A DNA stretch of 34,658 nt. Source: Dehalococcoidia bacterium. GTDB lineage: Bacteria > Chloroflexota > Dehalococcoidia > Dehalococcoidales > W111. How positions within the stretch are numbered: position 1 is the first letter of the stretch; the number at the start of each line of letters is the position of its first letter. Shown here one piece after another: positions 18,139-31,085 of this stretch. Location of the stretch: NCBI GenBank assembly GCA_011191985.1, contig DUEU01000056.1:1-34658 (forward strand), read 5' to 3'. A model generated the notes under the pieces. It saw nothing but the letters and a program-made list of their open reading frames with translations, was not told the DNA's origin and did not search any database. The translations under genes were made by a program, and so were the position numbers.

Positions 18139-19215
18139 CTAATGTCCGCCGGACAGTACCCTTCGCTGCCTCAGGAAAGCTGGGACAGCCAACTCTTCCT
18201 CAGTCTTAAGGTTCTTAAGTACGCGGGTGATTTCTTTCTCCCGCCCGGCACCGATTAATGTCTCCTTATCGGCAAAGCCGGTAGCAATTAGCGTCAGCCT
18301 GACCTCGCCATTCAGGTTGGTATTAAGCGTGACGCCGAAGATGATATTAGCGTCCGGGTCAACAGCCTGCCGGATAACGTCGGCTGCCCGGTTGACCTCG
18401 AGCAGACTAAGGCCATCGCCGCCAGAAATGTTGAACAGCACCCCTTTGGCCCCCCGGACCGATACATCCAGAAGCGGGCTGTCCAGCGCTGCCTGAGCCG
18501 CCTCAATGGCCCGGTTCGGCCCGGCACCGCGGCCGATAGACATCCATGACGGGCCGGCATCCGACATCACCGCCTTCACATCGGCAAAATCAAGGTTAAT
18601 CAGCCCGGGAACCGTGATGACCTCGGCAATAGCTTGAACTCCGTGACAGAGGACTTCGTCGGCCAGTTTAAAGGCGCCGTCAACCCCGGTCTTCTGGTCG
18701 CACAAAGCAAACAGGCGGTCATTGGGGATGATGACCATCGTGTCCACCTTATCAATGGTGCCGGCAATACCTTCCTCGGCAACCTGGCAGCGGTGGACAC
18801 CCTCAAACAAGAACGGCTTGGTGGCCACCGCGATGGTGAGGGCCCCACTCTGCTTGGCGATTTCCGCCACCACGGGTAACGACCCGGTGCCGGTGCCACC
18901 ACCCATACCGGCGGCAATAAATACCATATCGGCCCCGGCAACGAGTTGCCTGATTTCGTCGCGGTTCTCCTCAGCCGACTTCTGTCCCATGTGTTGGTCA
19001 CCGCCAGCACCCAATCCCCGGGTAAGCTTATTACCAATCTGGAGCCGGACTTCGGCCTCAGTAACTGCCAGATGCTGGGCATCAGTATTCATGGCGATGA
19101 ATTCCACGCCCTGTATTTGCTCTCGAACCATCCGGGTAATGGCATTACAGCCGGCGCCACCAAGGCCAACGACCTTAATCTTAGCCGGACTGGGTACGTA
19201 ACTTGCTCTTGCCAT
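18139..19215 (-). CDS. ftsZ: cell division protein FtsZ
   Basis: VVGLGGAGCNAITRM, MNTDAQ, FIAAGMGGGTGTGSLPVVAEIA, IIPNDRL, NLDFADVKAVM; C-terminal VPAFLRQRR peptide. Confidence 0.97.
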   Translation of the reverse strand: MARASYVPSPAKIKVVGLGGAGCNAITRMVREQIQGVEFIAMNTDAQHLAVTEAEVRLQIGNKLTRGLGAGGDQHMGQKSAEENRDEIRQLVAGADMVFIAAGMGGGTGTGSLPVVAEIAKQSGALTIAVATKPFLFEGVHRCQVAEEGIAGTIDKVDTMVIIPNDRLFALCDQKTGVDGAFKLADEVLCHGVQAIAEVITVPGLINLDFADVKAVMSDAGPSWMSIGRGAGPNRAIEAAQAALDSPLLDVSVRGAKGVLFNISGGDGLSLLEVNRAADVIRQAVDPDANIIFGVTLNTNLNGEVRLTLIATGFADKETLIGAGREKEITRVLKNLKTEEELAVPAFLRQRRVLSGGH

Positions 19216-19250
19216 TTCTCATCTCCTTATTTTGGACTGCTCAGACGCTT

Positions 19251-20465
19251 CTAATTCCGGCTGCTGAAGTAGCTCAGTAACCGGGGAGGTAAAATACGCC
19301 AGCCCTCTCGCTGGCCCCTCAGGTCCGGCACGTTCTGGTTCCTTATTTTCCAGCACACCAGACCGAAGCTGGTAGCATATTCCGGCCAGCGCAGGCTGCT
19401 ATCGTGCCCATCCGGTACAATCGGCGTACCGACCCTTACCGGCAGGCCAGTGACTCTACGCCCCAGATCAGCTATGCCAGCAAGGTTACTGCAACCACCG
19501 GTGAGCACCAGCCCCGAGGAGACACCATAGCTAGAGTCGGTGCGCGGTATCCGAAACAGGATAAGACGCAACAACTCCTCAACACGGGCGTTAATAATCT
19601 CGCACAAATCGCGGTAGAGGATAGCATAGCCACCTCCTGTTAAGGTGAGGTCGCCATCGTCCGTTTCTCCTGGCAGCAGAGCGCTACCATGCTTTCTTTT
19701 CATTTCCTCAGCCACACCAAAGGGAATACTCAGGCCAACCGCAATATCATTGGTAATGTGGTAGCCGCCCACGGGCAGAGTCGACGTGTGACAAACACTG
19801 CCACCCTTGAAAACGGCAATATCGGTGACGGCGCCGCCGATGTCAGCCACAGCAACACCATCCTGTCTCTCGTCCTCGGTGAGCACCGCTTCGGCGCTGG
19901 ACAGAGACCCGAGAACTAGACCATCAATACCGATACCGAGGTGCCGGATACACCTGGTCAGGTTCTGAACTGAGGTTGCCGCCGTGGTAACAATGTGTGT
20001 CTCAACCCCCAGGCGAAAGCCCGTCATCCCCACCGGATCCTTGATATTATCCTGCTCATCGAGGGTGAAAGAGCGCGGTATAAGATGGAGCAGTTCCTGG
20101 TCAGACGGTACCTCGACGCTCTGGGCAACTTCAAGGGCCCGTTTCCTATCAGCGATATGCACCATCTGGTCCTCACGGGAGATGGAGATGACCCCATGGT
20201 TGTTCAGTGAACTCATCTCCGGGTCGGAAATACCAACATAAGCCGATTTACAGCGGTAGCCGGCCATCTTTTCCGCCTTGCTTATCGATTTTGAGATTGC
20301 CGCCGCCGCATTCCGGGTATTTGCCATGGCGTTTTTTTCTATCCCCTGAGACTCGGCAACGCCAACCCCTAGTATCCGGAGAGCCCCCGTACCATTGGTA
20401 TCGGCCATAATTGTGCATACCTTGGTGGCTCCGACATCAATAGCCGAAATTCTGTTTCTTTTCAT
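19251..20465 (-). CDS. ftsA: cell division protein FtsA
   Basis: AIDVGATKVCTIMA, HIVTTAATSVQNLTRCIRHLGI, VADIGGAVTDIAVFKGG, GLVLTGGCSNLAGI; immediately upstream of ftsZ. Confidence 0.94.
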   Translation of the reverse strand: MKRNRISAIDVGATKVCTIMADTNGTGALRILGVGVAESQGIEKNAMANTRNAAAAISKSISKAEKMAGYRCKSAYVGISDPEMSSLNNHGVISISREDQMVHIADRKRALEVAQSVEVPSDQELLHLIPRSFTLDEQDNIKDPVGMTGFRLGVETHIVTTAATSVQNLTRCIRHLGIGIDGLVLGSLSSAEAVLTEDERQDGVAVADIGGAVTDIAVFKGGSVCHTSTLPVGGYHITNDIAVGLSIPFGVAEEMKRKHGSALLPGETDDGDLTLTGGGYAILYRDLCEIINARVEELLRLILFRIPRTDSSYGVSSGLVLTGGCSNLAGIADLGRRVTGLPVRVGTPIVPDGHDSSLRWPEYATSFGLVCWKIRNQNVPDLRGQREGWRILPPRLLSYFSSRN

Positions 20466-25385: not shown

Positions 25386-26561
25386 GTGAAACTACTGGTT
25401 ATAGGTTGCGGGCAATGCGGTGGCCGGATTGCCGATCAATTTGCTCGCCTGAATAGAAGGGCACACATCCAGCGTGGTATTGATATCGTCGCCGACGTGC
25501 TGGCGGTTAACACCGATATAGCTGATTTAAGCGGTCTGTCCTATATAAAGCCCGACTATCATCACCGCATTTTAATTGGCGGGCAGAAGACCGGTGGTCA
25601 TGGCGTCGGTAAAATAAATGAGATCGGCGCCGAGCTGGCCAGAGAAGATACCGACAAGGTTATCGAAGGCATCAGGACGATACAACGGTTTGCCGATACC
25701 GATGGCTTCTTGCTGATTGCCGGTGGCGCCGGCGGCACCGGCTCGGGGGCCATGCCGGTGATGACCCAGCATTTAAAAGAACGCTATATGTACAAACCGG
25801 TCTATAACCTGGTTGTTCTCCCCTTCAAGTACGAAGAGATGACCGAGGAAAGGTCTATTTACAACGTAGGCACCTGCCTCAAATCGGCCTACCTGGTAGC
25901 CGATGCCATATTCCTAGTTGATAACCAGAGATTCGTTAAGAAAAACACCTCAATAAGAAAAAACCTGGCGAAAATAAACACTCAAGTCGTTGAACCGTTC
26001 TATAACCTACTCTGTGCCGGCGAGGAGACAAACGCCAAGTTCATCGGGTCAAGGGTACTCGACGCTGGAGATATTATACAGACACTGGCGGGATGGACCG
26101 TAATCGGCTACGGGCGGGCCCGGTTGCCCCGTATCAGAATCCCCGGCGAAGACAAGCTCCACTTCCGGGACAAGGCCACCGAGGCCGAGAAGGGGGTTCA
26201 GGCAATGGATGAAGCCATCGGTGAGCTGTCCCTCAAGTGCAACCCTACCGATGCCAAAAGAGCCCTCTACCTCCTGACGGCGCCGCCCGAGGAAATGAAC
26301 ATGGAGATGATAAACGAGCTCTCGGCGTCCCTGAAAAACGTCGCTACTGAGGCGATCATACGAAGCGGCGATTACCCCAGGGGGAAAGGGGCACTGGATA
26401 TCACCGTGATATTATCTGACCTGCTGAACTCCAGAAAAGTCATGGAATATTTCACGAAGACTATTGGTTACATCTCGACTACGCGGAGAAGGCGAGGCGG
26501 GGCCGAGTACGAACAGAGAGGAATTGAGGAGGCATTTAAGGATATACCCTCGTTATTATAA
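25386..26561 (+). CDS. divergent tubulin/FtsZ-superfamily GTPase, not canonical FtsZ
   Basis: LLVIGCGQCGGRIADQFARLN (tubulin-like G1), AVNTDIADL, LLIAGGAGGTGSGAMPVMTQHL (GGGTGSG-like signature); GGAG before GTG 25386 (ORF track starts 25347). Confidence 0.85.
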   Translation: MKLLVIGCGQCGGRIADQFARLNRRAHIQRGIDIVADVLAVNTDIADLSGLSYIKPDYHHRILIGGQKTGGHGVGKINEIGAELAREDTDKVIEGIRTIQRFADTDGFLLIAGGAGGTGSGAMPVMTQHLKERYMYKPVYNLVVLPFKYEEMTEERSIYNVGTCLKSAYLVADAIFLVDNQRFVKKNTSIRKNLAKINTQVVEPFYNLLCAGEETNAKFIGSRVLDAGDIIQTLAGWTVIGYGRARLPRIRIPGEDKLHFRDKATEAEKGVQAMDEAIGELSLKCNPTDAKRALYLLTAPPEEMNMEMINELSASLKNVATEAIIRSGDYPRGKGALDITVILSDLLNSRKVMEYFTKTIGYISTTRRRRGGAEYEQRGIEEAFKDIPSLL

Positions 26562-26603: not shown

Positions 26604-27071
26604 TTAACTGCCCCCGGTGACTTTGCTATTACCCTGGAACATCTGCCAGGCCTTCTCGGTAGTTTCTTTGGAGACTTCCCAGGCCAGCTCTATGGCCTCA
26701 TCACGTGCTTTCAAGGCCTGCTCTATACTCTGCCGGTATACTTCCATGGCCTTTTCTTTGGCCTTCCTACATGCCTCATCAGCTTGCAGTTCTGCCTGCT
26801 CACGAACCCTCACGGCCTTTTCTATGGCTGCCTCGCAGGCTTTGCTGGCCTTCCGTTCCGCCTCTTTATAGGACACCTCAACCTGCTTTTCCCGTTCCTT
26901 ATAGGCCTTGGCTACCTCTTTTTGAGCCTCCATATAGTCCAGGTAAGCACGTTGGGCACGGCCTAACAGTTCAGCAAGCGGGTCAACAACCGTTTCGGGA
27001 GCCTCGTCCGTTTTTTGGGGCTCGGCCACTGGTCTGACACCTTTTCCGGACTGCTCCTTCTGATTCACCAT
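26604..27071 (-). CDS. hendecad-repeat coiled-coil protein, 155 aa
   Basis: Residues 44-142 divide into nine consecutive 11-residue units (LDYMEAQKEVA/KAYKEREKQVE/VSYKEAERKAS/KACEAAIEKAV/...). Confidence 0.8.
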   Translation of the reverse strand: MVNQKEQSGKGVRPVAEPQKTDEAPETVVDPLAELLGRAQRAYLDYMEAQKEVAKAYKEREKQVEVSYKEAERKASKACEAAIEKAVRVREQAELQADEACRKAKEKAMEVYRQSIEQALKARDEAIELAWEVSKETTEKAWQMFQGNSKVTGGS

Positions 27072-27120: not shown

Positions 27121-29175
27121 TCAGTCTTTGTCCTCTTCGTCATCTGGCTCTTCTTGTCTGGACCGGTTGGATGAATACATCCTAGTGAGAGACTCAAGCC
27201 TGGTTTCGATTTTCCGCTGAACCTCCCGCGTCCCTTTTTTTGTCTTGGTATCGGTCCCGATATCACCGATAGCTTTCCCGAAGGTCCGGCTCAGTACCTC
27301 AGCCGTATCTTCAGAAGTTTCAGCTATCTCCTCAGGACTGTCAGCGGCCGGTTCCGGGGCCACCTTGCTGGCCGGCGGCTCAACCGACTTACCGGCTTCT
27401 CTGGCACTACCAACCAGCTCTTCAAACACCCGCCGCGATACTTCAGCGGCCTCCCGCGCGGCCCTCTTCGACGCCTCAGTAGCTTCCCGGGCGGCCCTTA
27501 TTGATGCCTCGGCCGTCTCCCGGGCGGACTGGCTCACCGCCTCAGCTCGCTCAATCGCTTCCTGGGCGGCTCTGGCCGCCATCTCAGCCGCTTCCTTTGC
27601 TGCCCGGCTGGCCGCCTCAGCCTTGCTTATCACTTCCTCAGATGCCTTAGTCCACGCGGCTACGGTCTCTGTTGCCGACTTCCTTACCTCATAGGCCTTA
27701 TCGATAGCTTCCTGCGACGCCTTCACCGACAACTCAGCCGTCTCCTGGCACAGCCTCACCGATGCCTCGGTTGCCTCCCGGGACTCCTGGCTGGCTACCT
27801 CGGCTCGTCTGGCGGCTTCATCCGAGGCTGCTTTTGACACCTCCACCGCCTCCAGGGAATTTCTTATCGACTCCTCCGCCTTCTGTCGGGCGCTCCAGGC
27901 TGATTCCTCGGCCCGGCTGGTAGCCTCATCCGAAGCCCTTGTCGATAACTCAGCGGCTTCTTTAGCCGCCCTTATTGCTTCCCAGCTTGCCTCCCGGGAC
28001 GTGCGGCTGGCGGCCTCGGCCCGGCTGGCAGCCTCATCCGAAGCTGCTTTTGATGCCTCCGCCGCCTCCAGGGCAGTTCTCATCGACTCCTCCGCCTTTT
28101 GTCGGGCGCTCCGGGTTGATTCCTCGGCCTGGCTGGCGACCTCACCCGAAGCCCCTGTCGACATATCAACTGCCTCCTGGCACGACTGCTCAGCTGCTGC
28201 CACCCTGGTGATTGCTTCCTGCGACGCTTTCGCGGCCATATCGGCAACCTCTTTGGCCCCGGCCACCCATTTCTCAGCAGTCTCCCTGGCATTCCTGCCT
28301 GTCTCTTCAGACCGCTTTATCGCCTCCTCAGAAGCCCTTATCGATGCCTCGGCTGCCTCTCTTGTTGACTTGCTCACTGCCTCGGCCTTCTGTATGGCTT
28401 TTTCAAAGTTCCTGGCGTATGCTTTGGCCGCGCTATCTGCCGACTTGGTTACTTCCTCAACCTTGCGTACCGCTTCTTGAGATACCCTGGCCGACTTCCT
28501 GGCCATCTCTTTGGCCGATTCACCCACCTCCCCGGCCCGTTCCACTGCCTCCTTAGATGACCTTATCGATTCCTGGGCCGCTTCCTGGACCGCTTGATAT
28601 ATCTGCTCGGACCGCTCTACTACTCCCTGAGAGGTCTTTATCGATTCCTCAACCACGTCTTTGGCTGATTTGGCGGTTGCCTCGGCTCTATACACGGCCT
28701 CCTCATACGTCTTTACCAGACCCTCAACAGTCTCTTTGGTTGACCGGATTATTTCTTCAACCCTGCCTGTGGCCTCCCGAAAAGTCTTTCTTGATGCCTC
28801 AGTAACCTCCCTGGCCGCCCGGCCGGCCGCCTCGGCCTCACCAATGGCCTGCTCAAAAGCCCGGCTCAAATCTGCCGAAGTCTCCTCAGTCGACCGGTAT
28901 ATCTCCTCCGCCCGGCTCACTGCCTGCTGGGACGCCCGGGCTGCCTCCTCGGCCGCCGCTTTAGCCTTTTTGCTTACCTCTTCGGCACGCGTAATGGCTT
29001 CCCGCGACACCCGTACCGACTCCTCGGTCGCCTGTCTGGCTAACTCACCCAGCTTCTCAGCGGTCGCCACCGCTTTCTGAAACATCCCGGCACCGCCCCC
29101 GTCCTCGCCCAAGGCTTCTGCGAATACCTCTTGCGGTACCTCTGTCCGAGCAGACCTTCCTTTTTTGTCAGCCAT
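27121..29175 (-). CDS. 684-aa Ala/Glu-rich repeat coiled-coil protein
   Basis: Long ORF with 25-aa repeat units and 36-aa variants; acidic tail EEPDDEEDKD. Confidence 0.85.
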   Translation of the reverse strand: MADKKGRSARTEVPQEVFAEALGEDGGGAGMFQKAVATAEKLGELARQATEESVRVSREAITRAEEVSKKAKAAAEEAARASQQAVSRAEEIYRSTEETSADLSRAFEQAIGEAEAAGRAAREVTEASRKTFREATGRVEEIIRSTKETVEGLVKTYEEAVYRAEATAKSAKDVVEESIKTSQGVVERSEQIYQAVQEAAQESIRSSKEAVERAGEVGESAKEMARKSARVSQEAVRKVEEVTKSADSAAKAYARNFEKAIQKAEAVSKSTREAAEASIRASEEAIKRSEETGRNARETAEKWVAGAKEVADMAAKASQEAITRVAAAEQSCQEAVDMSTGASGEVASQAEESTRSARQKAEESMRTALEAAEASKAASDEAASRAEAASRTSREASWEAIRAAKEAAELSTRASDEATSRAEESAWSARQKAEESIRNSLEAVEVSKAASDEAARRAEVASQESREATEASVRLCQETAELSVKASQEAIDKAYEVRKSATETVAAWTKASEEVISKAEAASRAAKEAAEMAARAAQEAIERAEAVSQSARETAEASIRAAREATEASKRAAREAAEVSRRVFEELVGSAREAGKSVEPPASKVAPEPAADSPEEIAETSEDTAEVLSRTFGKAIGDIGTDTKTKKGTREVQRKIETRLESLTRMYSSNRSRQEEPDDEEDKD
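27430..29085 (-). repeat. coding repeat tract: about 21 units of 25, 36 or 11 residues
   Basis: Unit boundaries read from translation, e.g. VSREAITRAEEVSKKAKAAAEEAAR, ASQQAVSRAEEIYRSTEETSADLSR; covers residues 31-582. Confidence 0.85.
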
Positions 29176-29453: not shown

Positions 29454-30017
29454 CTATACTGCTTCCATCACCAGCTGAAGGCTATCCTCCTCCTTTACGA
29501 CGCTGTTAATAATAGGTTCCTGTCTCAGGAGACTCGGCAGCGGTAATTTATCCTCAGCATGAACAACAATCGTACTCTTGCCATCAGCGGAACCGCCCAC
29601 TGATACTAACCGCAGCCCGGCCACCCCGCATAAGAAAGTCTGTAATTTCAGTACCTGGAGAAAATCAGCTGGTTCAGTTATACGAAGCTCTACCCGGCCA
29701 AAATATAGCTCATCATCGTCGGTCTCTTTGACCACTTCTTCCGTAACGGCACCCACAGCAACAGTTTCCTCAGCAACAGCCTCTTCCGCCACAACGTGCC
29801 CGGCAGTAGCTGCTGCTACGACAGCTTCTGCCTCAGCAATAGCAGCGCTTACCGGCTGTGATGGGCGTCCACGGGAAAACCGCCCAAACAAATCGTTGAG
29901 GAAAGTCCTCTCTTGTTTTTTAAGAAATCGCAAAATCAGGTGGCTCAGCAGTGCTCCCACCAAGACGCCAACCACAGCGCAGACCAGAAGCACCGGTACC
30001 ATTTGCAGCCATTCCAT
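29454..30017 (-). CDS. membrane-anchored protein: N-terminal TM helix, Ala/Val/Glu-rich linker, C-terminal globular domain
   Basis: VPVLLVCAVVGVLVGALLSHLIL; then AEAVVAAATAGHVVAEEAVAEETVAVGAV, then ELYFGRVELRITEPADFLQVLKLQTFL...; GGAGG before ATG 30017 (track start 30056). Confidence 0.75.
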   Translation of the reverse strand: MEWLQMVPVLLVCAVVGVLVGALLSHLILRFLKKQERTFLNDLFGRFSRGRPSQPVSAAIAEAEAVVAAATAGHVVAEEAVAEETVAVGAVTEEVVKETDDDELYFGRVELRITEPADFLQVLKLQTFLCGVAGLRLVSVGGSADGKSTIVVHAEDKLPLPSLLRQEPIINSVVKEEDSLQLVMEAV

Positions 30018-30068
30018 CTCTATCCTCCAACAACCATTATTATTAATCAGGCTCAAATACTACCAATT

Positions 30069-31085
30069 CTACCGTTGCGCTACCTTCTCAGTATGTCCCT
30101 GCAGGTTCTTATTGGCCATCTGTTCGGCCTCTTCAATTATCTTTTGCGCCTTTTGCATTACCTCAGCGATAATCTTGTCCGACTCTGCCTTGGCCATGTT
30201 CTCGGCCTCTCTAACAATCTGCTCCGCCCTTTGCTTGGCCGCGGCAACAATCTCCGCCGCCTCCCACTGCGCCTTCTGCTTCACCTCGGCAGACGTTTTA
30301 GAAAGCTCCTTCTCTACCTTCTTCCGGCCCATCTCCCGGGCCTCCTCGATAATCTGCTCTTTCTTCTGTTCCGCTTCAAGGATGATTCTCTTCGCCTGCT
30401 CCCTGCCTTCTTCCAAGCCCAGCTCTCTGGCCTCCTTTTTAATCTGCTCCGCTTCCAGTTGCGCTCGCCTCTTTTCCTCTGTACTGTCCTTCTCTATTTG
30501 CTGTTTCATTTCGGCGGCGGCCCTGGCCAACTCTTCTGTTTCCTTCCGCGCACCCTCTATCAGTCGAGCAGAAACGACTTCGGCTTCTTTCCTGGACTCA
30601 GCTACTATCTTCTCCCACTCCACGTTAGCCATCTGCCTCGCTTCAGCGACCACCCTGGTGGCTTCCTCACTGGCCTTAGCCATGAGTTGCTCTACCTCAC
30701 GCTGCGTATCTTGTTCCGCTTGCTTCCTGGCTTCTCTTTCCGCCTCTCTCTTAATCTCTTCGGTAAATTGCTCGGCTATTTTCTCCGCCCTCTGTCGCGA
30801 CTCTTCAGCATACTTATCTACCTGCTGCTTGGCTTCAGCCCTTATCTGCTCCACCTCCTCATGAGCTCGAGCAACGATACTGGCTGACTCCCTCCCCGCC
30901 GCTTCCAGCATTTTCTCTTTTTCCGAGCGGGCATGATCAACAATAGCCGCCGCTTCCTGTTCGGCCTCTTCCCTTATCTGCTCACCCTGTTCAATGATAA
31001 CCTGTGTCAGCCGTTGCTTGTACTCATCAACGATTTGGGCGGCTTCTTCTGCCTTTTGTTTTAGTCCGTCCTTAGCCACTACCAT
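30069..31085 (-). CDS. long coiled-coil protein resembling ATP-synthase-b/DivIVA-type helices
   Basis: REEAEQEAAAIVDHARSEKEKMLEAAGRESASIVARAHEEVEQIRAEAKQQV...; GGAGG before ATG. Confidence 0.8.
   Translation of the reverse strand: MVVAKDGLKQKAEEAAQIVDEYKQRLTQVIIEQGEQIREEAEQEAAAIVDHARSEKEKMLEAAGRESASIVARAHEEVEQIRAEAKQQVDKYAEESRQRAEKIAEQFTEEIKREAEREARKQAEQDTQREVEQLMAKASEEATRVVAEARQMANVEWEKIVAESRKEAEVVSARLIEGARKETEELARAAAEMKQQIEKDSTEEKRRAQLEAEQIKKEARELGLEEGREQAKRIILEAEQKKEQIIEEAREMGRKKVEKELSKTSAEVKQKAQWEAAEIVAAAKQRAEQIVREAENMAKAESDKIIAEVMQKAQKIIEEAEQMANKNLQGHTEKVAQR

Follow-up and report, generated by a model that had tools for sequence, protein, structure and literature searches.

The closest described relatives of the protein treated here are the CetZ proteins of archaea, such as CetZ1 and CetZ2 of Haloferax volcanii. 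A passage of a 2024 article still calls CetZ archaea-specific (PMC11621097), and one sentence of another paper reports CetZ-like proteins in Chloroflexota-Dehalococcoidia, in groups that it calls paraphyletic (PMC9871819). The CetZ family itself is thus not new, as Dehalococcoidia members are already in print, and the open-licence literature yielded nothing beyond that paper on CetZ combined with Chloroflexota. The window, by which we mean the whole stretch of 34,658 nucleotides that was analysed, is contig C52 of a 2.0-Mb genome (Chloroflexota, Dehalococcoidia). Its cetZ-like gene, the loops and C-terminal end of the product, and the ftsA-ftsZ pair nearby are located as follows:

18139-19215, minus strand: canonical ftsZ (TIGR00065, 400 bits), with the C-terminal peptide VPAFLRQRR
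19251-20465, minus strand: ftsA (TIGR01174, 343 bits), whose product is a possible adaptor for the DIPSLL end
25386-26561, plus strand: cetZ-like gene of type A, 391 aa, GTG start, in an ORF open from GTG 25347
25722-25748, plus strand: predicted T4 GTP-binding loop GGAGGTGSG, residues 113-121; G116, G117, T118, G119, S120 and G121 invariant in 38 aligned relatives
26058-26075, plus strand: predicted T7 catalytic loop LDAGDI, residues 225-230; D226 and D229 invariant in the 38 relatives
26541-26558, plus strand: FtsZ-CTP-like C-terminal peptide DIPSLL, residues 386-391; the protein ends in KDIPSLL-COOH

Translation from GTG 25386 gives 391 residues opening M/V-KLLVIGCGQCGG, and this start is preferred over GTG 25347 because paralogue C23 (L003) has an ATG at the same residue. 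In the long ORF, residues 16-198 match Pfam Tubulin (111 bits, E = 8.4e-32) and residues 202-368 match CetZ_C (PF21011; 62.5 bits, E = 4.5e-17, cut-off 21.6), E-values that exclude a chance match. CetZ_C proved specific, with matches only in H. volcanii among 14 control genomes and none in the FtsZ-only controls. The Pfam search returned the Tubulin GTPase domain and CetZ_C only, with no match to FtsZ_C (PF12327) or to the tubulin C-terminal domain (Tubulin_C). On the FtsZ equivalog model the protein scores 65.4 bits against a cut-off of 295.2, where the neighbouring ftsZ reaches 400; together with the CetZ_C match, this indicates that the gene is real and is not FtsZ. A PDB sequence search ranked CetZ1 (4B46, 5e-45), CetZ2 (4B45, 4e-29) and a Methanosaeta CetZ (3ZID) first to third, and tubulin structures aligned mostly over the GTPase core. 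An AlphaFold2 model built from an alignment of 38 relatives (mean pLDDT 87.3, pTM 0.89) has a CetZ-like fold; CetZ1, CetZ2 and CetZ were its top three Foldseek matches, with a TM-score of 0.94 on CetZ1 and about 0.82 on FtsZ. Profiles and model together make it very likely that the product is a bacterial CetZ.

An initial annotation had read the gene as a tubulin/FtsZ-superfamily GTPase distinct from the division FtsZ encoded nearby with ftsA. All of this is borne out, and the motifs it quoted, LLVIGCGQCGGRIADQFARLN and GGAGGTGSGAMP, both occur in the protein. The affiliation that it left open is to the CetZ branch. Its suggestion of an undescribed subfamily fails at the level of the family, which is CetZ, characterised and reported in Dehalococcoidia (PMC9871819), with no bacterial member of known role; it can be kept, in a weaker sense, for the paralogue types, the end peptide and the pair of coiled-coil neighbours. 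For these, as for the peptidoglycan pattern discussed below, the open-licence literature gave no description, and an earlier one elsewhere is possible.

The annotation had also counted the gene as the second of its superfamily, but the genome holds seven, two FtsZ and five CetZ-like. The two ftsZ genes belong to separate ftsA-ftsZ pairs (window 18139-20465 and L001:226-2601), each ftsZ downstream of its ftsA, and two FtsZ also occur in several other genomes of the class. Close relatives of the CetZ were found at 77 loci, with up to 77% identity (60-77% across the class), nearly all labelled Dehalococcoidia, Dehalococcoidales or Chloroflexi. Among 301 sampled Chloroflexota genomes, CetZ_C occurs in 22, all from the same order or class. 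Two labels, Syntrophaceae (L055) and Deltaproteobacteria (L091), would suggest a wider spread, which we reject. Both contigs are read as mis-binned Dehalococcoidia, the first because its aligned protein is identical to that of L056, the second because it carries the order typical of the class, eno-gapA-cetZ-dnaX-ybaB-recR. In L106 (9841-10146) and L062, a truncated cetZ of 101 aa adjoins the full-length gene, with gapA on one side and the coiled-coil module on the other, and is probably a decaying tandem duplicate.

Seven other Dehalococcoidia genomes (G130, G310, G336, G346, G356, G368 and G371) carry a different CetZ, whose CetZ_C scores are 105-132 bits; the window's kind scores 45-76 and was found in none of the seven. 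The representative in G130 (L108:4495-5553) groups with haloarchaeal CetZ in the tree and is without the DIPSLL end. A separate transfer from archaea is possible for this kind.

Relatives of the window's protein also appear to include proteins of Dehalococcoides mccartyi, a bacterium important in cleaning up chlorinated solvents. In genome G007, FtsZ genes lie at 363,684 and 624,746 and a dnaX-linked cetZ at 575,580. DET0343, DET0589 and DET0636 have been listed as FtsZ (PMC5102406); from the gene order and spacing in G007, DET0589 is probably a CetZ, so that some published FtsZ expression data may concern CetZ instead.

The residues on which nucleotide hydrolysis depends in this superfamily are conserved. 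In pairwise alignments D226 and D229 stand opposite the D and E of VVDSSEII in H. volcanii CetZ1, D229 at the position of E218. Given the invariant T4 glycines and T7 aspartates, GTP binding and assembly-coupled hydrolysis are expected by analogy with the family. The C-terminus is conserved as well. The pattern [DEN][ILVM]Px[LFIVM], mostly as DIPSLL, ends 104 of the 105 near-complete bacterial relatives, and in the AlphaFold2 model the last residues have a pLDDT of 92 after a linker at about 53. Close to the C-terminus, the two FtsZ proteins of the same genome have VPAFLRQRR and DVPSFLRRP, and DIPSLL is without the basic residues that come next in the FtsZ peptide (xIPxFLR). The FtsZ tail, described as absent in the initial annotation, is thus missing in its basic part, but an FtsZ-CTP-like end is present. 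Four of seven sampled haloarchaeal CetZ proteins end in EIESLF, ELDALF, RLENLF or ELDSLF, and a short hydrophobic end may therefore be general in CetZ. The likeness of DIPSLL to the FtsZ and archaeal CetZ ends appears to be one of sequence, with no homology implied.

Downstream of the cetZ-like gene lie two genes for coiled-coil proteins, transcribed towards it:

26604-27071, minus strand: small coiled-coil protein, 155 aa, with a hendecad-like periodicity of about 3.66, the core ..AYAAY..A.+.VA.AY.. and a C-terminal EQAW
27121-29175, minus strand: large coiled-coil protein, 684 aa, of Ala/Glu-rich 25-residue tandem repeats, with a C-terminal RLxxLxxMY and an acidic end

The large protein is 22% Ala and 17% Glu, and its family has a sharp period at 3.58 residues. 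A repeat unit of 25 residues is indicated by the self-identity of the window protein at lag 25 (0.258, with 0.117 expected) and by the same lag being the strongest across the family; RLxxLxxM[YFL] stands at the C-terminus of 49 of the 56 near-complete copies. Neither protein has a Pfam or NCBIfam match over cut-off, the large one giving a weak sub-threshold hit to Phasin_2. We infer that both are rods acting on CetZ. Only two copies of the small protein occur in the window's genome, each adjoining a type A cetZ. A homologue of it lies away from cetZ in two other genomes (G242 and G256; L096:372-1968 and L097:1303-3055), where it immediately precedes a DivIVA-like gene whose C-terminal domain is conserved. 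Upstream of the large coil gene, the window has two further minus-strand genes (29454-31085), one for a 200-aa protein with a hydrophobic segment at its N-terminus and one (30069-31085) for a coiled-coil protein of 338 aa, rich in Glu and Ala and weakly similar to Wag31/DivIVA. The latter does not match the DivIVA-like genes of L096 and L097 and is therefore not counted in the module.

The association with coiled-coil genes separates two kinds of bacterial cetZ. In a tree of 131 proteins, the window gene falls within a clade of 73 rows with an SH-aLRT of 100 (type A); with FtsZ as the sole outgroup, the archaeal CetZ rows form a long branch inside the bacterial rows, flagged as long-branch attraction. 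The sequences suggest two ancient paralogous types, A and B. A coiled-coil gene transcribed towards cetZ is the immediate downstream neighbour at 55 of 66 type A loci (median gap 72 bp) and at none of 37 type B loci, 25 of which have dnaX next. If small ORFs in between are tolerated, a coil gene stands no more than three genes away at 63 of the 66 type A loci; one of these is L006, whose coil genes are upstream of cetZ on the same strand. Of 767 ORFs of these loci that are not from the two families, 2 are coil-like. The common order is eno - gapA - cetZ(A)> <small <large - cetZ(B)> dnaX ybaB recR, and the pairing of type A with coil genes is kept in at least seven families with differing flanking genes. 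In complete single-contig genomes of two genera of one Dehalococcoidales family (L102, L104), cetZ faces one large coil gene. The whole module occurs twice in the window's genome (C52 and C28). Conservation of neighbourhood, the only basis here, makes a functional partnership between type A CetZ and the two coiled-coil proteins likely. It does not establish that the proteins bind one another, and their convergent transcription speaks against a single operon.

CetZ also keeps apart from the cross-linking enzymes of the cell wall. In 119 Dehalococcoidia genomes, CetZ_C was found in 23, a penicillin-binding (PBP) transpeptidase domain in 51 and both in none (Fisher, 4.9e-7), so that neither the window's genome nor any other CetZ-positive one has this domain. 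At the level of 63 families, 10 have CetZ and 26 the transpeptidase, again with no overlap (p = 0.004). The exclusion fits the reported history of cell-wall gene loss, in which the ancestor shared by Dehalococcoidales and SAR202 lost a division and cell-wall gene cluster and D. mccartyi has an S-layer-like wall (PMC10608941). It is not independent evidence of function, as the genomes are related by descent and CetZ is lacking from many that are wall-less, and a small number of gains and losses in a single clade may account for it. From the many transpeptidase-negative genomes that are without CetZ it also follows that CetZ is not required for life without peptidoglycan. SepF was rejected as a docking partner, being found in none of the 119 genomes. 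Because CetZ1 of H. volcanii affects the archaellum, a link to motility was considered as well, and was rejected: archaellin (PF01917) occurs in 25 of the 119 genomes, four of them CetZ-positive, with no association.

From the sequences and by analogy with FtsZ and archaeal CetZ, a GTP-dependent CetZ filament that works with a coiled-coil scaffold of its own in peptidoglycan-free cells has in our judgement an even chance of being correct. CetZ would bind GTP and assemble head-to-tail into protofilaments in which the next subunit along supplies the T7 acidic residues that complete hydrolysis, as it does in FtsZ and CetZ. Through the variable linker and the DIPSLL end, the filament would attach to an adaptor, which may be FtsA or the coiled-coil proteins encoded next door; this end could also have a quite different partner. 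The large 25-residue-repeat and small hendecad proteins would be rods that cross-link CetZ filaments or position them at the membrane, and the most likely task would be to maintain cell shape or support the envelope, and perhaps to constrict as well, after peptidoglycan loss. The type B paralogues, linked to gapA and dnaX, would form a second, coil-independent filament. That shape or envelope support is the main role we consider about as probable as its contrary, division being the leading rival, and the roles of CetZ and FtsZ could overlap since canonical FtsZ is also present. The fuller proposal, in which type A CetZ and the small and large coils make up one composite cytoskeleton that maintains shape after peptidoglycan loss, is put forward tentatively. 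The initial annotation had foreseen a chromosomal accessory cytoskeletal protein; it was right about the chromosome and probably right about the role.

CetZ might instead be an accessory protein of the division ring that assembles together with FtsZ or alongside it; FtsA would recruit it by its C-terminal peptide, and the coils would be division scaffolds. The resemblance of DIPSLL to both FtsZ ends of the genome speaks for this, as does FtsA in 18 of 20 CetZ-positive genomes tested; FtsI-type transpeptidases are missing from the CetZ-positive genomes, so that other division parts may be needed. However, DIPSLL does not have the Arg-rich part of the FtsZ peptide, division proceeds without CetZ in most Dehalococcoidia (absent from 96 of the 119 genomes, FtsZ being present in 111), the genome already has its two ftsA-ftsZ pairs, and no cetZ is linked to ftsA-ftsZ or other division genes among the loci examined. 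A division role is on balance rather unlikely. Less probable still is a metabolic or general intracellular scaffold, with filaments that organise enzymes and do not serve as a shape cytoskeleton. Archaeal cetZ genes are linked to biosynthetic genes, and part of one article raises a possible role in stabilising multi-enzyme complexes (PMC9856176); eno and gapA adjoin cetZ in many of our loci, and type B is linked to both. This linkage looks positional, given that dnaX-ybaB-recR are linked too, and the window's type A gene keeps its coil partners away from eno and gapA, adjoining genes for a cyclophilin and a universal stress protein.

A TubZ-like DNA-segregation tubulin from a former plasmid or prophage would belong to the same superfamily, and TubZ is placed near CetZ in a section of one study (PMC9871819). 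We regard this origin as highly improbable, for the gene is chromosomal, with no adjacent DNA-binding adaptor gene in the loci examined, is one of five copies beside housekeeping genes, matches CetZ_C and ranks structurally with CetZ first, and no TubZ appears among the 50 Foldseek matches listed. A functionless FtsZ duplicate in decay, which a second ftsZ-like gene near an intact ftsZ might suggest, is in practice refuted by the invariant catalytic residues, the 60-77% identity across the class and the conserved neighbours and tail.

Returning to the CetZ filament with a coiled-coil scaffold, five cetZ genes and a conserved coil arrangement suggest an internal skeleton suited to wall-less cells. 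The coil pair are candidate binding partners of CetZ; archaeal gene neighbourhoods have pointed to none in the portions of the literature searched. The system also offers a test case for whether CetZ-type filaments are tied to wall-less life rather than to archaeal ancestry. If the composite cytoskeleton were true, it would be a bacterial counterpart of the archaeal CetZ system, with partners not so far known from archaea.

Among known systems, archaeal CetZ (H. volcanii CetZ1 and CetZ2, Methanosaeta CetZ) shares with the window protein the fold, CetZ_C, the GTP loops, the T7 acidic pair, expansion to several copies in cells without a peptidoglycan wall and, in four of the seven sampled, a short hydrophobic C-terminal end. 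It differs in its host and in sequence (about 31% identity over the aligned model), with E218 of CetZ1 in place of D229 in T7 and no counterpart to the proline of DIPSLL, and dedicated coiled-coil genes are absent among the archaeal cetZ neighbours given in the available part of PMC9856176. The archaeal-type CetZ of L108 is much closer to haloarchaeal CetZ1 (260 bits) than is the window protein (157 bits). The Dehalococcoidia CetZ-like sequences of PMC9871819 come from the same class, match the CetZ_C HMM and are almost certainly the same proteins as those described here; the part of that paper that treats them does not include the paralogue types, C-terminal peptide, coil partners or peptidoglycan pattern. 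Bacterial FtsZ, as encoded at 18139-19215, has in common with the CetZ the superfamily, the GTP loops, the D..D of T7 and an xVPxFL-like C-terminal peptide, but identity is 24-26%, and the CetZ has CetZ_C instead of FtsZ_C and no Arg-rich end. FtsZl-1 and FtsZl-2 (PMC2875224) are likewise extra FtsZ-superfamily proteins, and FtsZl-1 has a coiled coil in the same chain; here, by contrast, the coiled coils are encoded by separate neighbouring genes and the GTPase is of CetZ architecture.
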